DNA of 32,438 nt from contig JANQMV010000002.1 of assembly GCA_028279865.1 (NCBI GenBank), positions 1 through 32,438 on the forward strand. Reading direction: 5' to 3'. The translations under genes were made by a program, and so were the position numbers. Numbering within the stretch: position 1 is the first letter of the stretch; each line of letters starts with the position of its first letter. This document shows positions 4,268 to 14,666 of this stretch, piece by piece. The DNA comes from Candidatus Altimarinota bacterium (GTDB lineage Bacteria > Patescibacteriota > Gracilibacteria > JANQMV01). A model generated the notes under the pieces. The model was not told the DNA's origin and made no database searches. It worked only from the letters and a program-made list of their open reading frames with translations.

Positions 4268-6856
4268 TTACGACACATGCACCGGATCACGATCCACTCG
4301 CCAACCCACGGGTAATCGAATCTGCCTTATAATCTCATCCGGATTCTCTCCTTTCAAGATAATATTCCAATGATATTTGTTGTGCATTTTTGGAATCAGC
4401 GCCGGAGCGGATAAAATTTGAATATTTTTATCTTTGCTTAAATTAAGTAAAAATTTTTTCAAACTATCAACTTTTTGTAAAACTTTTTGAATGGAGTAAT
4501 CCACACAGGTTAATTTCACCACATTTGAAAAAGGTGGCCACTTAAGCTCCTCACGCATCTTAATCTCGTTTTGATAAAACAAAGTATAATCATGTTTGGC
4601 AATCGCCTGTAAAATAAAATTATCCGGATTATAAGTTTGTAACAAAACCTTACCTTGCTTGGCTCGTCTGCCTGCTCTGCCGCTCACTTGAGTCAGAACA
4701 TGGAAGATTTTTTCTCCACTGCGAAAATCAGGTACATTTAGCCCCACATCCGCATTTAAAATTCCTACTAAACTGACTTTGGGTAAATCAAAACCCTTGG
4801 CAATTATCTGCGTACCAATCACAATATCCACTTCTTCATTTTTAAGTTGAGTATAAAGCTGGGTATGCGCATCTTTCGCCGCCGTTGTATCGCGATCTAC
4901 CCTAGCAATGCGAGCCTTTGGAAAAAGTTTTTTTAAATCTCTTTCAATTTTTTGAGTTCCCGCTCCGACAAACTTGATTTGAGGAGATTGGCACTCAGGG
5001 CAAAGCAAAAGAGGATCCTGCATGCGTCCGCAATAGTGACAGATTAATTTCCCCTGATTACCTTTTTGGTGATAAGTCAGTCCGACATCGCAAGCCTTAC
5101 ACTTCGCGACGTAACCACATTCCCGACAAATCAAGCCGGATGAAGTACCTCGTTTATTTAAGAAAAGTAAAGCCTGCTCTTCATTTTCCAAAGTTTGCTT
5201 TAGCTCTTGAATTAACACATCCGAAAAAGGCGTAAAGTTTTTTTTCTGAAATTCTTCCTTTAGGTCAATGATTTTCACCTCAGGCAGCTTTGATTCTCTG
5301 GTAAATTTTTTACCGGAAATTTCATCTTCGTAGATGCGCTTTTTGAGAGTGAGTAATTGGTAGTTTGTAGTTGGTAGTTTTTTTGTCATTCCGGCTTGTC
5401 CGGAATTTTGAACCTCAACTTTTTCATTTTTAAATTCAACGTTCTCAACATAATGCTGGTTCAATGTCTCTGACTTGAACCGAGATGTTTTTTTACAACT
5501 CTCCTGAATTGTATCCTTTTGGTTTTGTGATTTAATTTGTTGTCCTTGAGGTACAACACCCTTTAACCTCCTCAAGGGGGACTTATTAATAGCCCTCCAG
5601 TAATCCTCCACCCTCGGTGTAGCCGTGCCTAAAATTAATTTTGATTTATGATATTTTGCTAAAAGTTCCGCAACTTTATGCGTGTGATAGCGTGGAGTCT
5701 GGTCGTTTTTGTAATACCATTCATGCGCTTCATCAATCACAATTACCCCTAATTTGGGATAAGGATAAAATAACGCGGAACGCGAGCCGATGATTACTTT
5801 TTTCTGACCAAGTTTAATCTGCCACCAGATTTTCTCCTTTTCTCCGTCGGAAAGCTTGGAATGAATCACTCCGACTGCGTCACCAAAAACATTTTTAAAA
5901 TATTCCACAATTTGTGTCGTTAGTACAATTTCAGGCACTAAAACCAAGGCTGTCTTTCCCTTTTCCAGACTCTCTCGAATTGTGTGCAGATAAAGTTCCG
6001 TTTTTCCCGAGCCTGTTATGCCGTGTAATAAAACCGGTTTTTCTGACTTTTGAATTGCTTTAAGGGCATCTTTCTGTTCGGAATTTAACGCTTTCATATT
6101 CACAATTTCTGTTACCAGATCCGAAGGTGAAAGATTTTTTACTTCTACAATTATCCATCCTTTTTCGGTCAATTTCTTCAGTGTTGCTGAACTATACTCA
6201 GGTAATTTTCTGATTTTTTCCAAATTGGCTTTTCCAAATTCTTTCAAAAATTCAATAATAGCTATTTGCTTCTTTCCTCTTATTTTTTTTTCTGAGAAAT
6301 CGATTTCAGGATTCAAAAAATATTTTATAACTTTTGGTTTATGAATTTTATTTCTCCAAAAATTTTTAGGTAAAAAAAGTTTTAAAACCTGAGAAATTGA
6401 GCAGAGATAATAATCTGCAATCTCTTGCGCAATCAATAAATCATGCTCATTAATCAGAGGTTTTGTATACAATATTTGTTCAATATTTTTTAAATTCATA
6501 GGCTGCTGGTTCAACGTCTCTGACTTGAACCTTAAGTTTTCCTTATTAGTCTCCCGACTAATATTCAATTGGTTTTGCGACTGTTCTTGCTCACCTTTTG
6601 GTACAACACCCCCCAATCCCCTCAAGGGGGACTTTTTTGAAGAATCATCTTCAAATGAAACACTTTTGCTCACAGCTTGAGGCTCGCAGCTCAAAACTTT
6701 AACTGCTACGACAAGCGCATTATAAAAAGTCTTCTGAAATGGCACTTTCACAAGTTGTCCCACTTTCAGATCAGACTGTAATTCTTCCGGCACGGCATAA
6801 TCCAAAATACCTGAAGAAAAAGCCAAATATTTTTCTAAAACAACCCTTGCAATCAT
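4268..6856 (-). CDS. priA: Primosomal protein N' / replication restart helicase PriA with two in-frame repeat insertions
   Basis: PriA rebuilds replisomes at stalled forks. From ATG 6856 the protein is 862 residues; a TTG three bases upstream is an alternative start. The N-terminal DNA-binding domain opens MIARVVLEKYLAF. Walker A GITGSGKT is at 279-286 and DEAH at 375-378. An eight-cysteine zinc region (four CxxC pairs) lies at about 565-625, followed by the C-terminal helicase lobe. It is about 130 residues longer than E. coli PriA. The excess is explained by repeat-derived segments at about residues 55-121 and 424-501. Both contain the peptide RFKSETLNQ and a KSPLR..GVVP.G peptide encoded by the same nucleotide repeats. 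The second insertion sits after GTATPRVEDYWRAIN and before LPEVKIIDL, away from catalytic motifs. Stop TAA. Confidence 0.95.
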   Translation of the reverse strand: MIARVVLEKYLAFSSGILDYAVPEELQSDLKVGQLVKVPFQKTFYNALVVAVKVLSCEPQAVSKSVSFEDDSSKKSPLRGLGGVVPKGEQEQSQNQLNISRETNKENLRFKSETLNQQPMNLKNIEQILYTKPLINEHDLLIAQEIADYYLCSISQVLKLFLPKNFWRNKIHKPKVIKYFLNPEIDFSEKKIRGKKQIAIIEFLKEFGKANLEKIRKLPEYSSATLKKLTEKGWIIVEVKNLSPSDLVTEIVNMKALNSEQKDALKAIQKSEKPVLLHGITGSGKTELYLHTIRESLEKGKTALVLVPEIVLTTQIVEYFKNVFGDAVGVIHSKLSDGEKEKIWWQIKLGQKKVIIGSRSALFYPYPKLGVIVIDEAHEWYYKNDQTPRYHTHKVAELLAKYHKSKLILGTATPRVEDYWRAINKSPLRRLKGVVPQGQQIKSQNQKDTIQESCKKTSRFKSETLNQHYVENVEFKNEKVEVQNSGQAGMTKKLPTTNYQLLTLKKRIYEDEISGKKFTRESKLPEVKIIDLKEEFQKKNFTPFSDVLIQELKQTLENEEQALLFLNKRGTSSGLICRECGYVAKCKACDVGLTYHQKGNQGKLICHYCGRMQDPLLLCPECQSPQIKFVGAGTQKIERDLKKLFPKARIARVDRDTTAAKDAHTQLYTQLKNEEVDIVIGTQIIAKGFDLPKVSLVGILNADVGLNVPDFRSGEKIFHVLTQVSGRAGRRAKQGKVLLQTYNPDNFILQAIAKHDYTLFYQNEIKMREELKWPPFSNVVKLTCVDYSIQKVLQKVDSLKKFLLNLSKDKNIQILSAPALIPKMHNKYHWNIILKGENPDEIIRQIRLPVGWRVDRDPVHVS
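5355..5585 (-). repeat. In-frame repeat insertion 2 in priA
   Basis: It contains the TAGTTTGTAGTTGGTAGTTT tract, a GTCATTCCGGCTTGTCCGGA unit (5388-5407), the GGTTCAA...TTGAACC palindrome (5458-5481) and a CCTCAAGGGGG palindrome (about 5571-5581). Matching units occur between genes elsewhere in the window. The reading frame of priA is preserved through all of them. Confidence 0.75.
6494..6694 (-). repeat. In-frame repeat insertion 1 in priA
   Basis: The segment includes the GGTTCAA...TTGAACC palindrome (6508-6531), a TTAGTCTCCCGACTAAT inverted unit, the CCCCCAATCCCCTCAAGGGGG palindrome (about 6609-6630) and a CAGCTTGAGGCTCGCAGCTC tract. The same order of palindrome, TTAGTCTCC(T/C)GACTAAT unit, then CCCC palindrome is found in recG, so a composite element inserted in both genes. 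In priA it adds about 65 residues. Confidence 0.75.
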
Positions 6857-6909
6857 CAAAGGCAGTTTAGCTTAAAAGGTTTATTTTGTCATCGAACTTA
6901 AATAAACAG

Positions 6910-7983
6910 CTATCTTTTATACATAATATAATTCACAAGCGAAACACCAGGACGTCCTCCCCCGCTCCAAGATGGTGCCCAGTTTGTACAAGGTCATGGC
7001 CATTGTCATGTATCACAATAAATTTGATACACAATTTCATTGTCACTCCACAAGTTATCCAAAGAAACTCCATTTCACATATGAAAACAATAGTTTAATC
7101 CATGTGGTTGCCACGTAGTATCTGTAGGGCTTCACCATCTCATCATTCCTGCATAATTACATGCATTAGTAATATTGTTACTCAAATTAATAAATCTTAA
7201 TCTATCAACATTATTAACAAAATTTGCTCCAGAACAATTTTCTAAAGGTAAACATTGTCAATCTCCTACATATGCCGCGTATGCATTTGCAGATTGCTGT
7301 TTCCAAACTACTAAATAATCTGTTGCTCAGTTACAGTAATTTTTAATTGGATTTGCTCAATGGACAGATCTGTCATAACACTTTTCCCAACCACTTCATA
7401 CGCTATTTACCAAGTTTATTCTCTCTGTTTCTGTAAGCAAGTTTTCTCATATTTTCATACTTTCAGTCGTCACGCTCCACAAAAAAATATTGTCTCAAAC
7501 AATTGTTTGAGCATCTATGTTTCTAGTATAATCTGAACTTGACGTTTGCCTAAGCTGTAAATACTCTCCGTTTTTTATAAAACCTTTTCCTGTTTTCCAA
7601 TCACTCTTCACAGAAGTACAATCCGAATTATTACAAATTCTATAAGCAGGATTACCAACACCGGAAAGATTAACTTCCACAGGATGATTAACACCTGAAA
7701 TCCGTTGAATGTTTGATTCAGTTAAAGTATTTAAAGCTACATCCGCTTGATCCGTAAAACTAAAGCTATCCGGAATATCGTCAATTTCATCTATAATTCC
7801 CGTTACTCCAGCAATCGTAATTCCATTCCTAATGTTTTCTGCTTTAAGATTTGCCAATGGTCCATTCGGACAACTGTCGGGAGTACATCCCACAGGAGGA
7901 CCTGAAAAAGCGTACGTTCCTAGTGCAAATCAGAAGATTATTATTAATATAGCCGGTAGTTTTGTGTTTTTACAAAGATTCAT
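6910..7983 (-). CDS. Exported surface protein 1 of the TGA-recoded cassette (code 25)
   Basis: From ATG 7983 to TAG 6910-6912 one frame runs 357 residues if TGA is read as an amino acid. It contains 11 in-frame TGA and no internal TAA or TAG. It has an N-terminal signal peptide whose hydrophobic core includes one TGA (IIIF-TGA-FALGTYAFSGPP), then a GITIAGVTG repeat-like segment. A beta-domain with LSGVGNPAYRIC and YLQLRQTSSS follows, then a Trp/Cys-rich C-terminal region. With TGA as Gly the C-terminal part reads naturally: VGDGQCLP, YCDTGQWPGPCTNWAP. The first half is paralogous to the next gene upstream. It is probably a secreted or cell-surface adhesin-like protein. Under the standard code only a 132-residue fragment remains. 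Function is not known. Confidence 0.75.
7891..7947 (-). repeat. Signal-peptide repeat of the cassette, copy 1
   Basis: This stretch encodes the end of the signal peptide of cassette gene 1 (F-TGA-FALGTYAFSGPP). It is almost identical in bases to 9058-9112 and 10760-10812 at the 5' ends of the other two genes, TGA included. It indicates recent duplication or gene conversion among three paralogs that already carried the recoded codon. Confidence 0.7.
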
Positions 7984-7991
7984 ACTGAGTT

Positions 7992-9167
7992 TTAGTAATA
8001 TTCTATAGTTGGCAAACACCTAAATCTGCTATTTGGGAAAGTGTAATAATATGTAGGTCACGTACATACTGTTGGCGCTGTGCCATCAGATTTATACGCA
8101 TTCCAACATCAATTCGTATCACAAACTATATCTGCTCTAGCAGTACAAGTATGAGAAAATTTTGTATTAACGTTTCCTCAAATATTTGTTAAAGCACAAC
8201 CTCCTCACGTAATATGCGCATCAGCAGGAATATACTGATAATTAAATCAAGATGATGTATTGTCCCATACAGAATCACAATCCTCGTCAATGCTTGGAGT
8301 AGCCGTCGCACTTCAAGAAACTGCAGAGCAAGATAAATGCTGAGAAAAAATTCATAAAGATGAATTATCACTAATTCTTGTTATTCTAACTTGGGCACCA
8401 TTCCAATTACTACCGAACCAACCATCTCATGGAAGGGAAATTGTATGATTAGAAAGGCTATTGTCACAATTATAAATTGTAGCATCTACATCAGTCCATA
8501 CTCACAATTTGTTATACTGTATCTTGCAATTACCAACCAGAACTCACGCCGTCCATGAGATTGCGAAATTTTTACTGTTTGCTGTGTGAGATAGATTTAA
8601 ACTGCTTGGATTCACTTGTGAAAGAGTAGTTAAACTCCACACATCACTTCAGCTTCCAACATTGATGTTAACATTATTAGTCGTACTTCCCACTGAACTT
8701 GACGTTTGCCTGAGCTGTAAGTACTGAGCATTTTTCAAAAAACTATCATCCGAACTCCAGTCAAAAGCTACACTACTGCAAGTCGCATTATTACAGACTC
8801 TGTGCTCAGGTGATCAATCTCACGAAATTGATAAATCAACCGGAACTGTAATATCTGTTATTTGCAATATATCAGACTCAACCTGAGTACTCAGTGACAC
8901 ATCTGTTTGATCTGTAAAATTAAAACTTGCCGGATCTGTATCAAGTCCATTCAGTGAACCGGTTATACCTGCGATTGTGATTCCTTGTTTAATATTATTT
9001 GCCGTAAGATAAGCCAACGGTCCATTCGGACAATTACCCGGAATACAACTAACCGGAGGTCCGGAAAAAGCATACGTTCCTAGTGCAAATCAGAAAACCG
9101 CAACTAAACTGCCGATGAGTTTGGTTTTTTTGAGATAACTAGCAACTTTTTGGCTTAAATTTTTCAT
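7992..9167 (-). CDS. Exported surface protein 2 of the TGA-recoded cassette (code 25)
   Basis: From ATG 9167 to TAA 7992-7994 the frame gives 391 residues with 14 in-frame TGA and no internal TAA or TAG. The signal peptide (LVAVF-TGA-FALGTYAFSGPP) is nearly identical to that of its neighbours. GITIAGITGSL and FNFTDQTDVSLSTQ precede the beta-domain. The paralog motif LSGVGNPAYRIC here reads IS-TGA-D-TGA-SPEHRVC, so both TGA codons face glycines. The C-terminal region is Cys/Trp-rich (IQYNKL-TGA-VWTDVDA, FSHTCTARADIVCDTN). Eight bases separate it from gene 1 and four from gene 3, so the three form one operon. The standard code leaves only short fragments. Likely surface-exposed; specific role unknown. 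Confidence 0.75.
9058..9112 (-). repeat. Signal-peptide repeat of the cassette, copy 2
   Basis: Nearly base-identical to 10760-10812 over about 53 nt and slightly more diverged from copy 1. A second shared block, encoding YLQLRQTSSS, links 8695-8729 with 7528-7563. Confidence 0.7.
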
Positions 9168-9171
9168 TTTT

Positions 9172-10848
9172 TTAGAAATTAACTAATGATGTCTTGGCTA
9201 AAGATTGCTCTGAAACTGTGGCTGAACTACTGTCAACCGTTCCGCTTCTTGTTGACCAAGCGGGAGTAGCTGAAGCAAGTTCAATATCAGTTCCGTTTGC
9301 AAGAGCAGTTGCCAAGGTTTGCTGAACACTGTTACTTGTATCAATTGTATAGCTTCCATAAGTACCACTTTGGACTTTGCTAAAGTCCACAGGCAACTTA
9401 ATTAATTCATCACTAGTTGTGAAATAAATATATTCATTCTTTGTGTCCAATGCGCCATATAAATCCCAATCATTTGCCGTAAAACCGGAAATCTTTATCG
9501 CGTCTGAGTCAGGATTAAAAGATCATCCCGTGTTTCAACCTCATCCATTAAGAGCAATATTATTATCGTCTTTAATCCATTCAACAAAATAATATGAAGT
9601 TGCATCACTTGCATCCCGAAGCATAAGCCAAACACTGTGTTCAGCTGTATCACCAAAAACAATTGTACCTCTATACGGGTCTATAATATCCTTACTAAGA
9701 CTTATTTGGTCTTTAACACCAAGATGATAATCCATACTCAAAGCACAAAAATCACCGGTTGGTCCTCTGGCTTGAACTGCCATTCTGGTCTGATAAGGTT
9801 GCCCGAAGAGTCTTCTAAAATTAGCACTACTACTACTATCGGCTGAACCTACTGCATATTTTGTAGCATGATGCGACGTACCATTAATACTGGTTATCAA
9901 ATGCTCATAAGGAGCACCTGAGTCAGCTGAAGTCCAGAGCATCCATAATCTATCTGAATAAATTGTTCCTCCCAATCCTCCGTATGAATACTCGCGATTC
10001 CTGATAGTCGGATTGATGTATGAACTGTTAAAACTTGGATTGCTATTCTGCCAAAAGACTAAAGCTAAATCAGCCGTATTTGCACCTCAACCAGGCACAC
10101 TACCTACATAAGCCGTATAACTCCCATTTGGCGTACCACCTACTACTCCCCGAGCATGAGAATTACCCCCGGAATATAAATAAGTTGCTTCAGCATTTGT
10201 AAATGGATAAGTCGATCGATGCGCTGCAATGGCATTTGTTCCTGCATTTTTGGCCGATGTAAAATACGCCGTCCTGTTCTTATCATTATACCAAAATCAG
10301 GCACTGTTTTCTTCTGAACCAGGATTTGTAGGTGCGATGTTTTTTGATAAAATTATGTCTCAATTATCAGAATTAACAACAATAATTTTACTATTATCAT
10401 CTTTTGCCGAACCAAGAATGAGATTATTTGTTTGAGAATCAATAAACACACCTCCATTCATAATATCAACAGAATCATATTGTGCTATCCATCCCTCTGT
10501 AATTTTTTCAGTAATATAATCCCATCCACCTTGCTTACAAATCTTCATTCAGTCTTCATCCTTATCAAAAATAAGAGTACCTAGCTTATTTGAATCACAA
10601 ACTATTGCATTAATATCAGTTGTTGACAATTGACCGACTCTCATCCCTCCATTCACGTCCAAAGTAACTTCAGGTGTGTTTGTTGCAATTCCAACACGTT
10701 GATTTACAAAATCTTGCGTTAAAGGAAGATTACAATTTCCTGGAGTACATCCCACAGGAGGTCCGGAAAAAGCATACGTTCCTAGTGCAAATCAGAAAAC
10801 CGCAACTAAACTACCGATGAGTTTGGGGTTTTTAAATTTATTGATCAT
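9172..10848 (-). CDS. Exported tail-fibre-like surface protein 3 of the TGA-recoded cassette (code 25)
   Basis: From ATG 10848 to TAA 9172-9174 the frame gives 558 residues with 8 in-frame TGA and no internal TAA or TAG. It shares the signal peptide of the two downstream paralogs (LVAVF-TGA-FALGTYAF). It then has VGIATNTPEVTLDVNGGMRVG, the pattern (VGIGTxxPxxxLDVNG) seen in phage tail fibres and bacterial trimeric surface fibres. GTLIFDKDED-TGA-MKICKQGGW follows, and a long beta-rich, Ser/Thr/Asn-rich body without recognised catalytic motifs. Three TGA cluster in a Gly-type stretch at about 9523-9541 (on the coding strand N-G-TGA-G-TGA-N-T-G-TGA). It is the first gene of the cassette, 96 nt downstream of the ftsB-like gene on the same strand. 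Probably an adhesin or appendage protein. Confidence 0.75.
10760..10812 (-). repeat. Signal-peptide repeat of the cassette, copy 3
   Basis: Third copy of the shared 5' coding block, in the first gene of the cassette. It holds the same in-frame TGA in the hydrophobic core of the signal peptide. Confidence 0.7.
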
Positions 10849-10944: not shown

Positions 10945-11349
10945 TTAAATTCTCTCCTCCCCGAAAAAATATTTCTTCCATTGTTCTCTATTTGAAAGCA
11001 GCATAACGCGCTCAATTTTTGCCTCCTTCTCTTCAATTATAGGATTTTCTGAAAAAAGATTCTCTGAAGCCTCCGGAAGAACAATCATTTTCTCACCCGG
11101 TTGAAGTTTATTTAAATTTTCCTTGGCATACTTATCTTTAAAAAGAGCTGAATTGAAATAAGCATACTCTTCTTGTTTATTCAGATTATCAGCAGCAATC
11201 TTTTCATTTTCTTCCAAATACCTTTCAAGGCGCAAATTAACCTGATAGTCGTTATAAACAGAAATTGCTAAGTTAAAAAGCATGTAACCAATGATCACAA
11301 AACCAATGATAATGATGGTTTGGATTTGTAAATTGTTCTTTTTGGGCAT
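10945..11349 (-). CDS. FtsB/DivIC-like septum formation initiator protein
   Basis: A 134-residue bitopic protein: a short basic N-terminus (MPKKNN), one transmembrane helix at about 11-30 (TIIIIGFVIIGYMLFNLAIS), and a coiled-coil-prone segment (about 35-65). Then comes DKYAKENLNKLQPGEKMIVL, which matches the end of the FtsB/DivIC domain (E-x-A-R/K-x-x-L-x-x-x-x-P-G-E). Such proteins act in the divisome with FtsL and FtsQ. Start ATG 11349 lies 27 nt after the CNNM gene on the same strand, so they probably share a transcript. The C-terminal tail of about 40 residues is charged and not recognised. Confidence 0.7.
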   Translation of the reverse strand: MPKKNNLQIQTIIIIGFVIIGYMLFNLAISVYNDYQVNLRLERYLEENEKIAADNLNKQEEYAYFNSALFKDKYAKENLNKLQPGEKMIVLPEASENLFSENPIIEEKEAKIERVMLLSNREQWKKYFFGEERI

Positions 11350-11376: not shown

Positions 11377-12672
11377 TTATACTTGTTCTTGAGAATTTTC
11401 GGCTTGTTCCTGTTTGTTCTGCATTTTTTTCTTGAGTAACCTAACCACTTGTATTTTGTTTTCAGCGACTTTTTCAACCAAAAGTTCACACTCATCAAAC
11501 GCAATTTTCACACCCACTTCCGGTATTTCTTGATGTTTTTCCAAAATTAAGTAGGAAATTGTTTTATGTTCCGGTGCATCCAGCTTGATTCCCGTTGCCG
11601 CATTCACGTCTTCAATTTCAGCTTCACCACTCAGAATCCAGTTATTCGCTCCGGATTTTTTAATCAAAACGCTTTCAATATCAGATTCATCCACAATTTC
11701 CCCGACAAGTTCTTCCAAAATATCTTCCATCGTCACAAGCCCGGCAACTCCTCCGTATTCATCCACAATAATTGCCAAATGTGTTCTCTTGTTCTGAAAA
11801 TCTTTAAATAAATCACTAATCTGCTTTGACTCCGGTACGATCAAAGGCTCGCTCAGATTAAGGTTCTTAAGTGGCACATCGTTATCATAATGACTGGTAA
11901 AATGCAAAAGCTGCCTCACTGATAAAATCCCTACGACATTATCAATTGTTTCCCGATAAACGGGAATACGTGAATGTGAATGCGTATTGATGTATTCAAC
12001 AGCATCAACCATAATCGTCTCTTCATCCAAAGCATCCATTTTTGTCCTTGGGGTCATCACTTCCTCAACAGTAGTTTCAGAAAAATCCAAAACATTTTCA
12101 ATCAGCTCTTTCTCTTCCTTATCTAATTCTCCTTCCTCCGCTCCGATATCAACCATCGCTTTAAACTCTTCTTCGGTAAAACTTTTTAAAGGGCTGTCAT
12201 CAATACCAAAAAGCCTCATTGTTCCTTTTGTAATACCTGTGAGAAGCCAAAGTAAAGGCAAAAACAAATAGCCCAACAAGACTAGTAAAGGAGCAATCAT
12301 TCTTGAGAAAGTCTCCGCATATTTTTGCGCAAAAGTTTTTGGTAAAATTTCACCAAAAATCAAGACAAGAAGGGTAATAGCTCCTGTTAAATAACCTAGA
12401 ACATTTGAATTAAAAGCATTACTTGCCCAGTTCGTTGCTAAAACAGAAGCAAAAATACTAACTAAATTATAGCTAATCAGAATCGTAATCAATAAGTCGT
12501 GCGGATTATCTCTAAGCTTTTTCACAGCCAAGGCTCCTTTTTTTTTATTTTCAATCAAACCTCTGACCTTTGCGGGTGAAAGAGAAAACAATGCAATCTC
12601 GGCGCCAGCAAACAATCCCGAGAAAAGGATTAAAGCAAATATAAATATCAGCAGCGGTATGTCACTTTCCAA
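11377..12672 (-). CDS. CNNM/CorC (HlyC-type) membrane protein with CBS pair
   Basis: A 431-residue protein of the DUF21-CBS-CorC_HlyC family, linked to Mg2+ and other divalent-cation transport. DUF21 occupies roughly residues 1-185 with several hydrophobic helices. EEGELDKEEKELIENVLDF leads into the CBS pair (about 205-330, with VEEVMTPRTKMDAL and LAIIVDEYGGVAGLVT). A CorC_HlyC domain follows (about 345-415). No ATG lies in frame at the expected position; the frame opens with TTG at 12672 (M-ESDIPLL). The C-terminal tail is Gln/Glu-rich. Old 'hemolysin' names for this family are not functional evidence. Confidence 0.88.
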   Translation of the reverse strand: MESDIPLLIFIFALILFSGLFAGAEIALFSLSPAKVRGLIENKKKGALAVKKLRDNPHDLLITILISYNLVSIFASVLATNWASNAFNSNVLGYLTGAITLLVLIFGEILPKTFAQKYAETFSRMIAPLLVLLGYLFLPLLWLLTGITKGTMRLFGIDDSPLKSFTEEEFKAMVDIGAEEGELDKEEKELIENVLDFSETTVEEVMTPRTKMDALDEETIMVDAVEYINTHSHSRIPVYRETIDNVVGILSVRQLLHFTSHYDNDVPLKNLNLSEPLIVPESKQISDLFKDFQNKRTHLAIIVDEYGGVAGLVTMEDILEELVGEIVDESDIESVLIKKSGANNWILSGEAEIEDVNAATGIKLDAPEHKTISYLILEKHQEIPEVGVKIAFDECELLVEKVAENKIQVVRLLKKKMQNKQEQAENSQEQV

Positions 12673-12842: not shown

Positions 12843-14666
12843 ATGACAATAAACTCCTTAAACCAACAAGTTAGCAAACTCATTGAAGAGACTGTTAAAT
12901 CGGTTTTTAACATTGAAAAAGCAATCAAACTGGAAGTACCCAAAGACACAAAATTTGGAGACTTTGCCTGTAATATCGCCATGCAAATCGTCAAAGAAGT
13001 TTCTAAAAATCCTCGCGAAATCGCGCAGGAAATTATTGATAATATTCCTGAGAATGAATTCATTGAAAAAGTAGAAATAGCCGGACCCGGATTTTTAAAT
13101 ATTACAGTAAAATCGGAAATTATTGCTGAAATTCTTTCGAATATTAATGAAAAATACGGAAATTCAGAAGAACTCAAAGGCAAAAAAATTATGGTTGAGT
13201 TCGCTCATCCCAACACCCACAAAGCTTTCCACATCGGACACTTGAGAAACATCTGCCTGGGAGAATCACTCGTGAGAATTATTAATTCCCAAGGAACAAA
13301 AGCATTTAGAGCCAACTATCAGGGTGATGTAGGACTGCACGTCGCAAAATGCCTTTGGGCAATCCTTCGACAAGCTCAGGATGACATTTCAAAAGTCCCC
13401 CTTAGCAAGGGGGAAAAGCTCGCAAATTCAAGGGGTTCAAAACCGCAAGGAGAGCTACAAACCCCTCAATCCCCTTTTCAAGGGGAAGCTAATTTGAAAA
13501 CCCCCCAACAAAAAGCAGAGTACCTCGGCAAAGTATACGCCCAAGGCGGACAAACCTACGAAAAAAACGAACAAGCCAAACAAGAAATTCATGCAATTAA
13601 CAAAAAAATCTACGCCCGTGATCCTGACATCATGCCACTTTGGAAAAAAACCAGACAATGGAGTTTGGATTACTTTGAACATATTTACAAAAGACTCGGA
13701 ACGCAACAATTTGATCACTATTACTTTGAAAGTCAAACTTTTGAGCTGGGAAAAGAGACAGTGCTTAAATTTTTAGAAAAAGGTGTTTTTGAAGAATCAG
13801 AAAAAGCTATAATTTTTGATGGAGAAAAGTATGGGTTACACAAAAGAGTCTTCATTACCAATGAAGGTAATCCGACCTATGAAGCTAAAGATATGGGGCT
13901 TTTTCAAATGCAATACAAAGACTTTCCTTTTGACAGAAACATTCACGTCGTAGCCAGCGAACAAGCCGAATACTTCAAAGTTATTTTTGAGGCAATGGAC
14001 AAAATCCAGCCTGGAATGAAAGAAAAACAATACAACCTTTCCTACGGAATGGTAAAACTCACTTCCGGAAAAATGTCATCCCGAACCGGCGACGTGATTA
14101 CTGCCGAATGGCTCATCGATGAAGCGAAACAAAAAGTAGCTGAAATTTTGAAAGAGTCTGATTTATTGGATGAAGAAAAAGAAGAAATCAATGAAAAAGT
14201 TGCCCTTGGTGCAATTAAGTTCACTATGCTACACGCAACTGCCAGAAACGATATCTCCTTTGATTTGGAACAAGCGGTTAAACTACACGGTGATTCTGGA
14301 CCATACTTACAGTATGCTTACACCAGAATCAGTTCGATTTTAAGGAATTTATCAGACAGAGATGGCACCTTTTTAAAAGGTGCCATCTCTTACGAGGTTT
14401 TAAATGAATCAGACTGGAATTTAGCCAAAAAACTAATCTACTTCCCGGAAGTGGTTACAAAATGTGCAGATGAATATTCTCCGCATCATATAACTAGGTA
14501 TTTACTTGATTTAGCTGCATTATTCTCTAGCTGGTATGAAAGTAATTCGGTTAAAAACGCTGAACCGGAATTACAAAAAGCCAGACTCAAACTACTTCAA
14601 TCAGTCAGGCAAGTGTTGAAAAATGGGCTTTATTTGTTGGGAATTGAGACGGTGGAGAAGATGTAG
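12843..14666 (+). CDS. argS: Arginyl-tRNA synthetase with in-frame repeat insertions
   Basis: A class I synthetase charging tRNA-Arg. The N-terminal Arg_tRNA_synt_N domain is residues 1-100, HIGH is at 130-133 (KAFHIGHLRN), and the KMSK-equivalent is KMSSRTGDVI. The C-terminal DALR anticodon-binding domain has HGDSGPYLQYAYTRI, YFPEVV and HHITRYLLDLAALF. At 607 residues it is longer than many bacterial ArgRS. Residues about 176-222 are repeat-derived (RQAQDD, VPLSKGE, TPQSPFQGEA) and sit between GDVGLHVAKCLWAIL and KAEYLGKVYAQG. A second insertion is a perfect 33-nt palindrome encoding residues 506-516. Start ATG 12843, stop TAG. Confidence 0.95.
   Translation: MTINSLNQQVSKLIEETVKSVFNIEKAIKLEVPKDTKFGDFACNIAMQIVKEVSKNPREIAQEIIDNIPENEFIEKVEIAGPGFLNITVKSEIIAEILSNINEKYGNSEELKGKKIMVEFAHPNTHKAFHIGHLRNICLGESLVRIINSQGTKAFRANYQGDVGLHVAKCLWAILRQAQDDISKVPLSKGEKLANSRGSKPQGELQTPQSPFQGEANLKTPQQKAEYLGKVYAQGGQTYEKNEQAKQEIHAINKKIYARDPDIMPLWKKTRQWSLDYFEHIYKRLGTQQFDHYYFESQTFELGKETVLKFLEKGVFEESEKAIIFDGEKYGLHKRVFITNEGNPTYEAKDMGLFQMQYKDFPFDRNIHVVASEQAEYFKVIFEAMDKIQPGMKEKQYNLSYGMVKLTSGKMSSRTGDVITAEWLIDEAKQKVAEILKESDLLDEEKEEINEKVALGAIKFTMLHATARNDISFDLEQAVKLHGDSGPYLQYAYTRISSILRNLSDRDGTFLKGAISYEVLNESDWNLAKKLIYFPEVVTKCADEYSPHHITRYLLDLAALFSSWYESNSVKNAEPELQKARLKLLQSVRQVLKNGLYLLGIETVEKM
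13362..13509 (+). repeat. In-frame repeat insertion in argS
   Basis: It begins with a CTTCGACAAGCTCAGGATGA unit, then the CCCCCTTAGCAAGGGGG palindrome (about 13398-13414), a GTTCAAAACCGCAAGG unit, and CCCTCAATCCCCTTTTCAAG followed by GGGAAGC (about 13466-13492). The last unit is also in valS (about 22090-22115), where it encodes the same peptide TPQSPFQGEA. Confidence 0.75.
14358..14390 (+). repeat. Perfect 33-nt palindrome in frame within argS
   Basis: Arm AGAGATGGCACCTTTT (14358-14373), one central T, and arm AAAAGGTGCCATCTCT (14375-14390) form a perfect 16-bp inverted repeat. It begins exactly on a codon boundary (codon 506) and is exactly 11 codons long, encoding RDGTFLKGAIS. It lies in the anticodon-binding domain between SSILRNLSD and YEVLNESDW. 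Its compact perfect symmetry suggests recent insertion. Confidence 0.85.

Follow-up and report, generated by a model that had tools for sequence, protein, structure and literature searches.

Evidence for an early, probably independent reassignment of UGA to glycine in a gracilibacterial genome that still encodes release factor 2

The window analyzed here, a stretch of 32,438 nucleotides from contig JANQMV010000002.1 of a Candidatus Altimarinota bacterium (assembly GCA_028279865.1), contains a cassette of three adjacent minus-strand genes that extend from ATG to TAA or TAG only when TGA is taken as sense (Table 1). Across 1,321 codons the cassette holds 33 in-frame TGA and lacks any internal TAA or TAG, confirming the open frames that an earlier reading of the sequence alone (the sequence-only reading) had described. 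Its argument that random decay would not leave such frames also stands: ~52 in-frame TAA/TAG are expected from composition and none is seen (P ~1e-23), while TGA is near background (33 versus 36.6 expected), as it should be were TGA simply sense. TGA makes up 33 of the 124 glycine codons of the cassette when counted as one of them. A signal peptide and a start that contains cysteine (GPPVGCTPGNC) are common to all three products and their paralogs; the signal peptide of the first gene product itself includes a TGA (VF-UGA-FALGTYAFSGPP), and the first half of the second is ~51% identical to the third. A Pfam search with the cassette proteins and most of the paralogs matched no family, and the proteins are most likely exported or located at the cell surface. 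The flanking genes, which had been said to need no recoding and indeed do not, simply happen to use no UGA, and the PriA-like gene among them shows that the cassette locus sits among core genes.

Table 1. Cassette genes, flanking genes and shared repeat in the window
Feature	Coordinates	Strand	Observation
Exported protein, 558 aa, first cassette gene	9172..10848	-	8 in-frame TGA, stop TAA
Exported protein, 391 aa, second cassette gene	7992..9167	-	14 in-frame TGA, stop TAA
Exported protein, 357 aa from ATG 7983, third cassette gene	6910..7983	-	11 in-frame TGA, stop TAG
PriA-like flanking gene	4268..6859	-	0 in-frame TGA; named from sequence
FtsB-like flanking gene	10945..11349	-	0 in-frame TGA; named from sequence
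CNNM-type flanking gene	11377..12672	-	0 in-frame TGA; named from sequence
Repeat common to window and contig C1	9..205	.	85% identity over 198 bp

In-frame TGA is spread through the genome of the window (G000), a single metagenome assembly of 1.48 Mb in 59 contigs with 95.8% completeness and 0.16% contamination. Genome-wide counts were taken from 538 kb of stretches (36% of G000) with home-made gene calls; 65 of the 395 open reading frames (ORFs) sampled contain TGA, 312 altogether, and UGA constitutes 3.4% of all glycine codons. Searching G000 with one cassette protein returned 10 places on contigs C37, C24, C9, C20, C16, and C31, every one with internal TGA. TGA-bearing genes lie beside core genes on more than 12 contigs, and both kinds occur together on C37, C59, and C31. 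ORFs with at least four TGA numbered 29 of 402 in G000 versus 0 of 213 in 258 kb from relatives bearing release factor 2 (RF2) under the same procedure; the gene caller was retrained for each set, giving 402 instead of 395 ORFs for G000, and the control loci surround conserved genes, which tilts this comparison in favor of our claim. Recoded genes include PilB/GspE ATPases, a PilC-like protein, TrkA, TrkH, a LOG-family protein, a KefB-like antiporter, and many exported proteins, with names partly from sequence inspection and those of TrkA, PilB, and LOG backed by PDB matches. RpoB of G000 contains no TGA. By eye, UGA seems enriched in exported proteins, a suggestive pattern that a rough division by hydropathy could not settle (UGA share of glycine codons 2.6% in single-helix, 7.9% in multi-membrane, and 2.5% in other proteins). 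On contig C31 (locus L296, 2900–19036), a 5,378-aa ORF, probably a giant exported protein, carries 28 in-frame TGA; on C29 (L298, 3519–9204), adjoining genes of 513, 762, 96, 63, 145, and 158 aa hold 48 TGA, nearly all of them several, and form a second dense cluster like the window cassette. Standard-code gene calls in this lineage truncate surface and pilus proteins.

Alignment to relatives points to glycine as the residue. Seven of seven strongly conserved columns that hold a TGA are glycine, six in the PilB/GspE family and one in the KefB-like antiporter. The six come from three G000 paralogs and are glycine in 29 of 29 relatives, with UGA placed as in STLPTVN-UGA-EK and EDPVEYQMD-UGA-LNQ; the antiporter column is glycine in 11 of 11. 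Glycine stands opposite three of the PilB TGA positions even in PDB alignments deliberately made with TGA as tryptophan, and paralogs of the exported family differ at the same column, some having GGN there and some TGA (as in AFSGPP versus AFS-UGA-PP). The PilC-like protein is uninformative on the residue, all four of its TGA being in variable columns. UGA therefore appears to be read as glycine genome-wide in G000, the assignment of the sequence-only reading being supported by the conserved columns and by a matching tRNA.

This tRNA, a glycine tRNA with a UCA anticodon that the sequence-only reading had named as a check, is present on contig C1 (G000:C1:4485-4558 plus flanking CCA; 77 nt, ARAGORN). 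Its acceptor, GCGGGAG...CTCCCGC-U-CCA, provides G1:C72, C2:G71, G3:C70, and U73; under the glycine identity rules of Shulgina and Eddy (PMC8629427), it carries glycine identity elements and is predicted to be tRNA-Gly(UCA). Contig C1, which also bears the ileS end and glnA, is tied to the genome of the window by the repeat of Table 1, common to both. The pattern search used for UCA tRNAs also matched tRNA-Glu(UUC) in families f11 and f5 and hence has no bearing on f11, f14, and f12.

The same check had named prfB, the RF2 gene, and here the outcome was unexpected: it is present alongside tRNA-Gly(UCA). prfB is located on contig C59 (6984–8006; 464 bits against a curated cut-off of 370), ~3 kb from a PilB gene with five TGA. 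The encoded RF2 keeps the SPF and GGQ motifs, differs at 4 of 99 near-invariant sites, a count within the range seen among relatives, and looks intact. A His-to-Gln change was considered as a sign of lost UGA recognition and rejected, since Glu or Gln occupies this site class-wide and the motif of family f10 is identical. Upstream lies a leader (ATG CAG GAT ... GAT AAG GAC TAT GTT TGA C) from which the +1 frame continues FDFAKLEQEIQ. The arrangement resembles the +1 programmed frameshift by which RF2 autoregulates, with Shine–Dalgarno-like purines, an xTT TGA C site, and a downstream frame that starts at the homologous place; f10 relatives hold the same kind of site. It differs from the known system in its slippery codon (GTT, consensus CTT) and in coexisting with a tRNA able to read UGA. 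Besides RF1 and RF2, contig C15 (L003, 1450–1854) encodes a third, short release-factor-domain protein, ArfB-like and of 134 aa with GGQ; such a rescue factor could matter if UGA decoding is ambiguous.

Gene ends carry signs of transition. Among ORFs with exactly one TGA, 9 of 23 have it in the last 13 codons versus 1.66 expected (P = 5e-6). LepA, DapF, and a homoserine-dehydrogenase-like protein end directly in TGA-TAA or TGA-TAG, and TGA precedes the stop by 1 codon in PurA and 7 codons in NAD kinase (names from sequence inspection). These tail TGA resemble former stops backed up by a second one, or else stops that have kept part of their function. A few single-TGA ORFs with TGA 14–21 codons before the stop are ambiguous, and no gene clearly ending at TGA without a close TAA or TAG was found in the 36% sample. 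Relatives already seldom use TGA as a stop (4 of 63 stops in f10, 13 of 105 in others), and the G+C content of G000 is 0.357 versus 0.42–0.43 in relatives. The sequence-only reading had offered a genome in transition as one possibility, and this fits well.

For placement, 39 relatives were drawn, all of the class Gracilibacteria and none of the same order. In the rpoB tree (1,074 columns), G000 is sister to f10 (support 87/90) within an RF2-bearing group. Uniting it with f11, f14, f22, and f24, families in which the class survey found no RF2, was rejected (approximately unbiased test, p-AU 0.011), as was grouping every UGA=Gly lineage into one clade (p 0.014). In the PilB tree, where f22 is anchored by a named Gracilibacteria record (PDRA), the starred clade (98/93) that contains G000 also holds f10, f2, f15, f17, and G011, and the five-TGA PilB is 64–67% identical to standard-code f10 but 44–56% to code-25 bacteria. 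On these trees G000 is a member of Gracilibacteria outside the known UGA=Gly clades, beside the standard-code, RF2-bearing f10. An independent origin is probable with reference to the organism tree; the tRNA gene itself may have been acquired. A second genome of the class, G011 (f12; L183 rpoB, L272 PilB, L328 PilC), measures 0.7 Mb, has no prfB match, and uses UGA as almost its sole glycine codon (77 TGA and 2 GGN in an rpoB piece; 54 of 59 conserved columns glycine). It branches next to RF2-bearing f17, apart from other UGA=Gly clades, and is perhaps another separate, far advanced reassignment.

The best explanation, which we hold with considerable though not full confidence, is an early, probably independent reassignment of UGA to glycine throughout the genome, in which a dedicated tRNA-Gly(UCA) came before RF2 loss and RF2 is still encoded. 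Several points weigh against it. The residue assignment depends on only seven strongly conserved columns; several TGA fall in variable columns, and the column at PilC 241 is mostly Lys/Arg in relatives. The rpoB tree gives moderate support to the exact sister group, and a common origin of G000 and just G011 was not rejected (p 0.22). RF2 might now be inactive on UGA, a code-25 relative could be the source of the tRNA gene, and the evidence comes from one metagenome assembly, the only genome of its order in the analysis.

A more specific form of this explanation, which we put forward tentatively as little short of evenly balanced, is that one and the same cell has tRNA-Gly(UCA) competing with an RF2 that is functional and senses UGA. 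UGA would then be both glycine and stop, the RF2 leader would be a switch turned off by the tRNA, and the origin would be independent of the code-25 clades, with the tRNA first and RF2 loss later. Under the broader explanation, UGA may already have been a rare stop in the ancestor; tRNA-Gly(UCA) would have started reading it, while RF2 persisted, in a lineage whose G+C lies below that of its relatives. Genes ending in TGA would survive where TAA or TAG closely follows, and new UGA codons would pile up in exported and pilus proteins that evolve fast, those of the cassette among them. Reading the leader UGA as glycine would yield ...Tyr-Val-Gly-Leu-Cys-TAA and no RF2. Because the RF2 mRNA needs a +1 frameshift at UGA, the tRNA itself should lower RF2 and tilt the balance to glycine over termination. 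The prfB frameshift is known to be sensitive to the levels of RF2 and near-cognate tRNA (PMC12421855).

The strongest alternative, plausible but somewhat more doubtful than not in our judgment, holds that UGA is already fully reassigned to glycine, that RF2 is kept only for UAA or is dying, that nothing competes, and that low UGA use reflects a recent change. It would account for the lack of any sampled gene clearly using TGA as its sole stop, the background rate of cassette TGA, and internal TGA in PilB and other conserved genes; against it stand an RF2 with SPF, GGQ, and normal conservation, the retained UGA-dependent leader, and the enrichment of TGA at gene tails. A further alternative concerns origin: instead of arising anew, the tRNA gene may have come by transfer from a code-25 relative and brought the capacity to read UGA along, which we regard as possible though less likely than not. 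The G000 tRNA is 69–70% identical to the UCA tRNAs of f22 and f24 versus 66% to its own Gly-UCC tRNA; however, this gap is within noise for 77 nt, the D-arm and anticodon stem differ, and the recoded genes themselves do not derive from code-25 bacteria. That the assembly mixes standard-code and code-25 bacteria, as a binning or assembly chimera, might be suggested by its 59 metagenomic contigs but is very unlikely given the low contamination estimate, the shared contigs of TGA and core genes, the f10-like character of TGA-bearing PilB, and repeats that link C1 and C37. The transferred code-25 island in a standard-code genome, the other option of the sequence-only reading, gains something from flanks that need no recoding and from clustered paralogs (C24, C37), and was rejected as highly improbable because TGA genes are spread genome-wide, include a PilB nearest to standard-code relatives, and are accompanied by the genome's own tRNA-Gly(UCA). 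Selenocysteine codons or decayed pseudogenes can be dismissed: the ARAGORN label "SeC" on the UCA tRNA derives from the anticodon, no SelB match over the cut-off was found in G000, the 77-nt tRNA has glycine identity, and the frames lack TAA/TAG and place TGA at conserved glycines.

The early reassignment favored here resembles code 25 of Absconditabacteria (SR1) and Gracilibacteria (BD1-5), in which UGA is glycine via a tRNA-Gly(UCA) with U73 and GCG/CGC acceptor pairs in A+T-rich, host-associated lineages of the same class. Unlike those clades, G000 has RF2 with a frameshift leader and a separate place in the class tree, and its UGA is a minor glycine codon, absent from RpoB; none of the BD1-5 genomes has prfB (PMC6851277). 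Code 4 of Mycoplasmatota likewise involves capture of UGA by a UCA-anticodon tRNA in A+T-rich genomes, but inserts tryptophan instead of glycine; prfB is mostly lost there, and the few genomes that keep it do so without the frameshift motif (PMC12421855). The open-licence literature searched yielded no description of a bacterium that reads UGA as glycine and retains RF2. Whether RF2 is lost first in a change from stop to amino acid, an idea invoked for BD1-5 (PMC6851277), or a new tRNA comes first and competes is an old question. The presence of tRNA and RF2 together, with a low and uneven UGA load, favors the tRNA-first order and makes the order testable, and G000 may show a code change while under way.

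Two minor features were also seen. On contig C53 (L037, 100–177), ARAGORN called a tRNA-like gene whose anticodon is oddly four bases long (ttaa). Short repeats lie inside coding frames of the window at 5455–5516, 6505–6564, 9–205, and 13391–13449 (PriA, RecG-like, ArgS-like) and recur on contig C1 within ileS at 80–92% identity.
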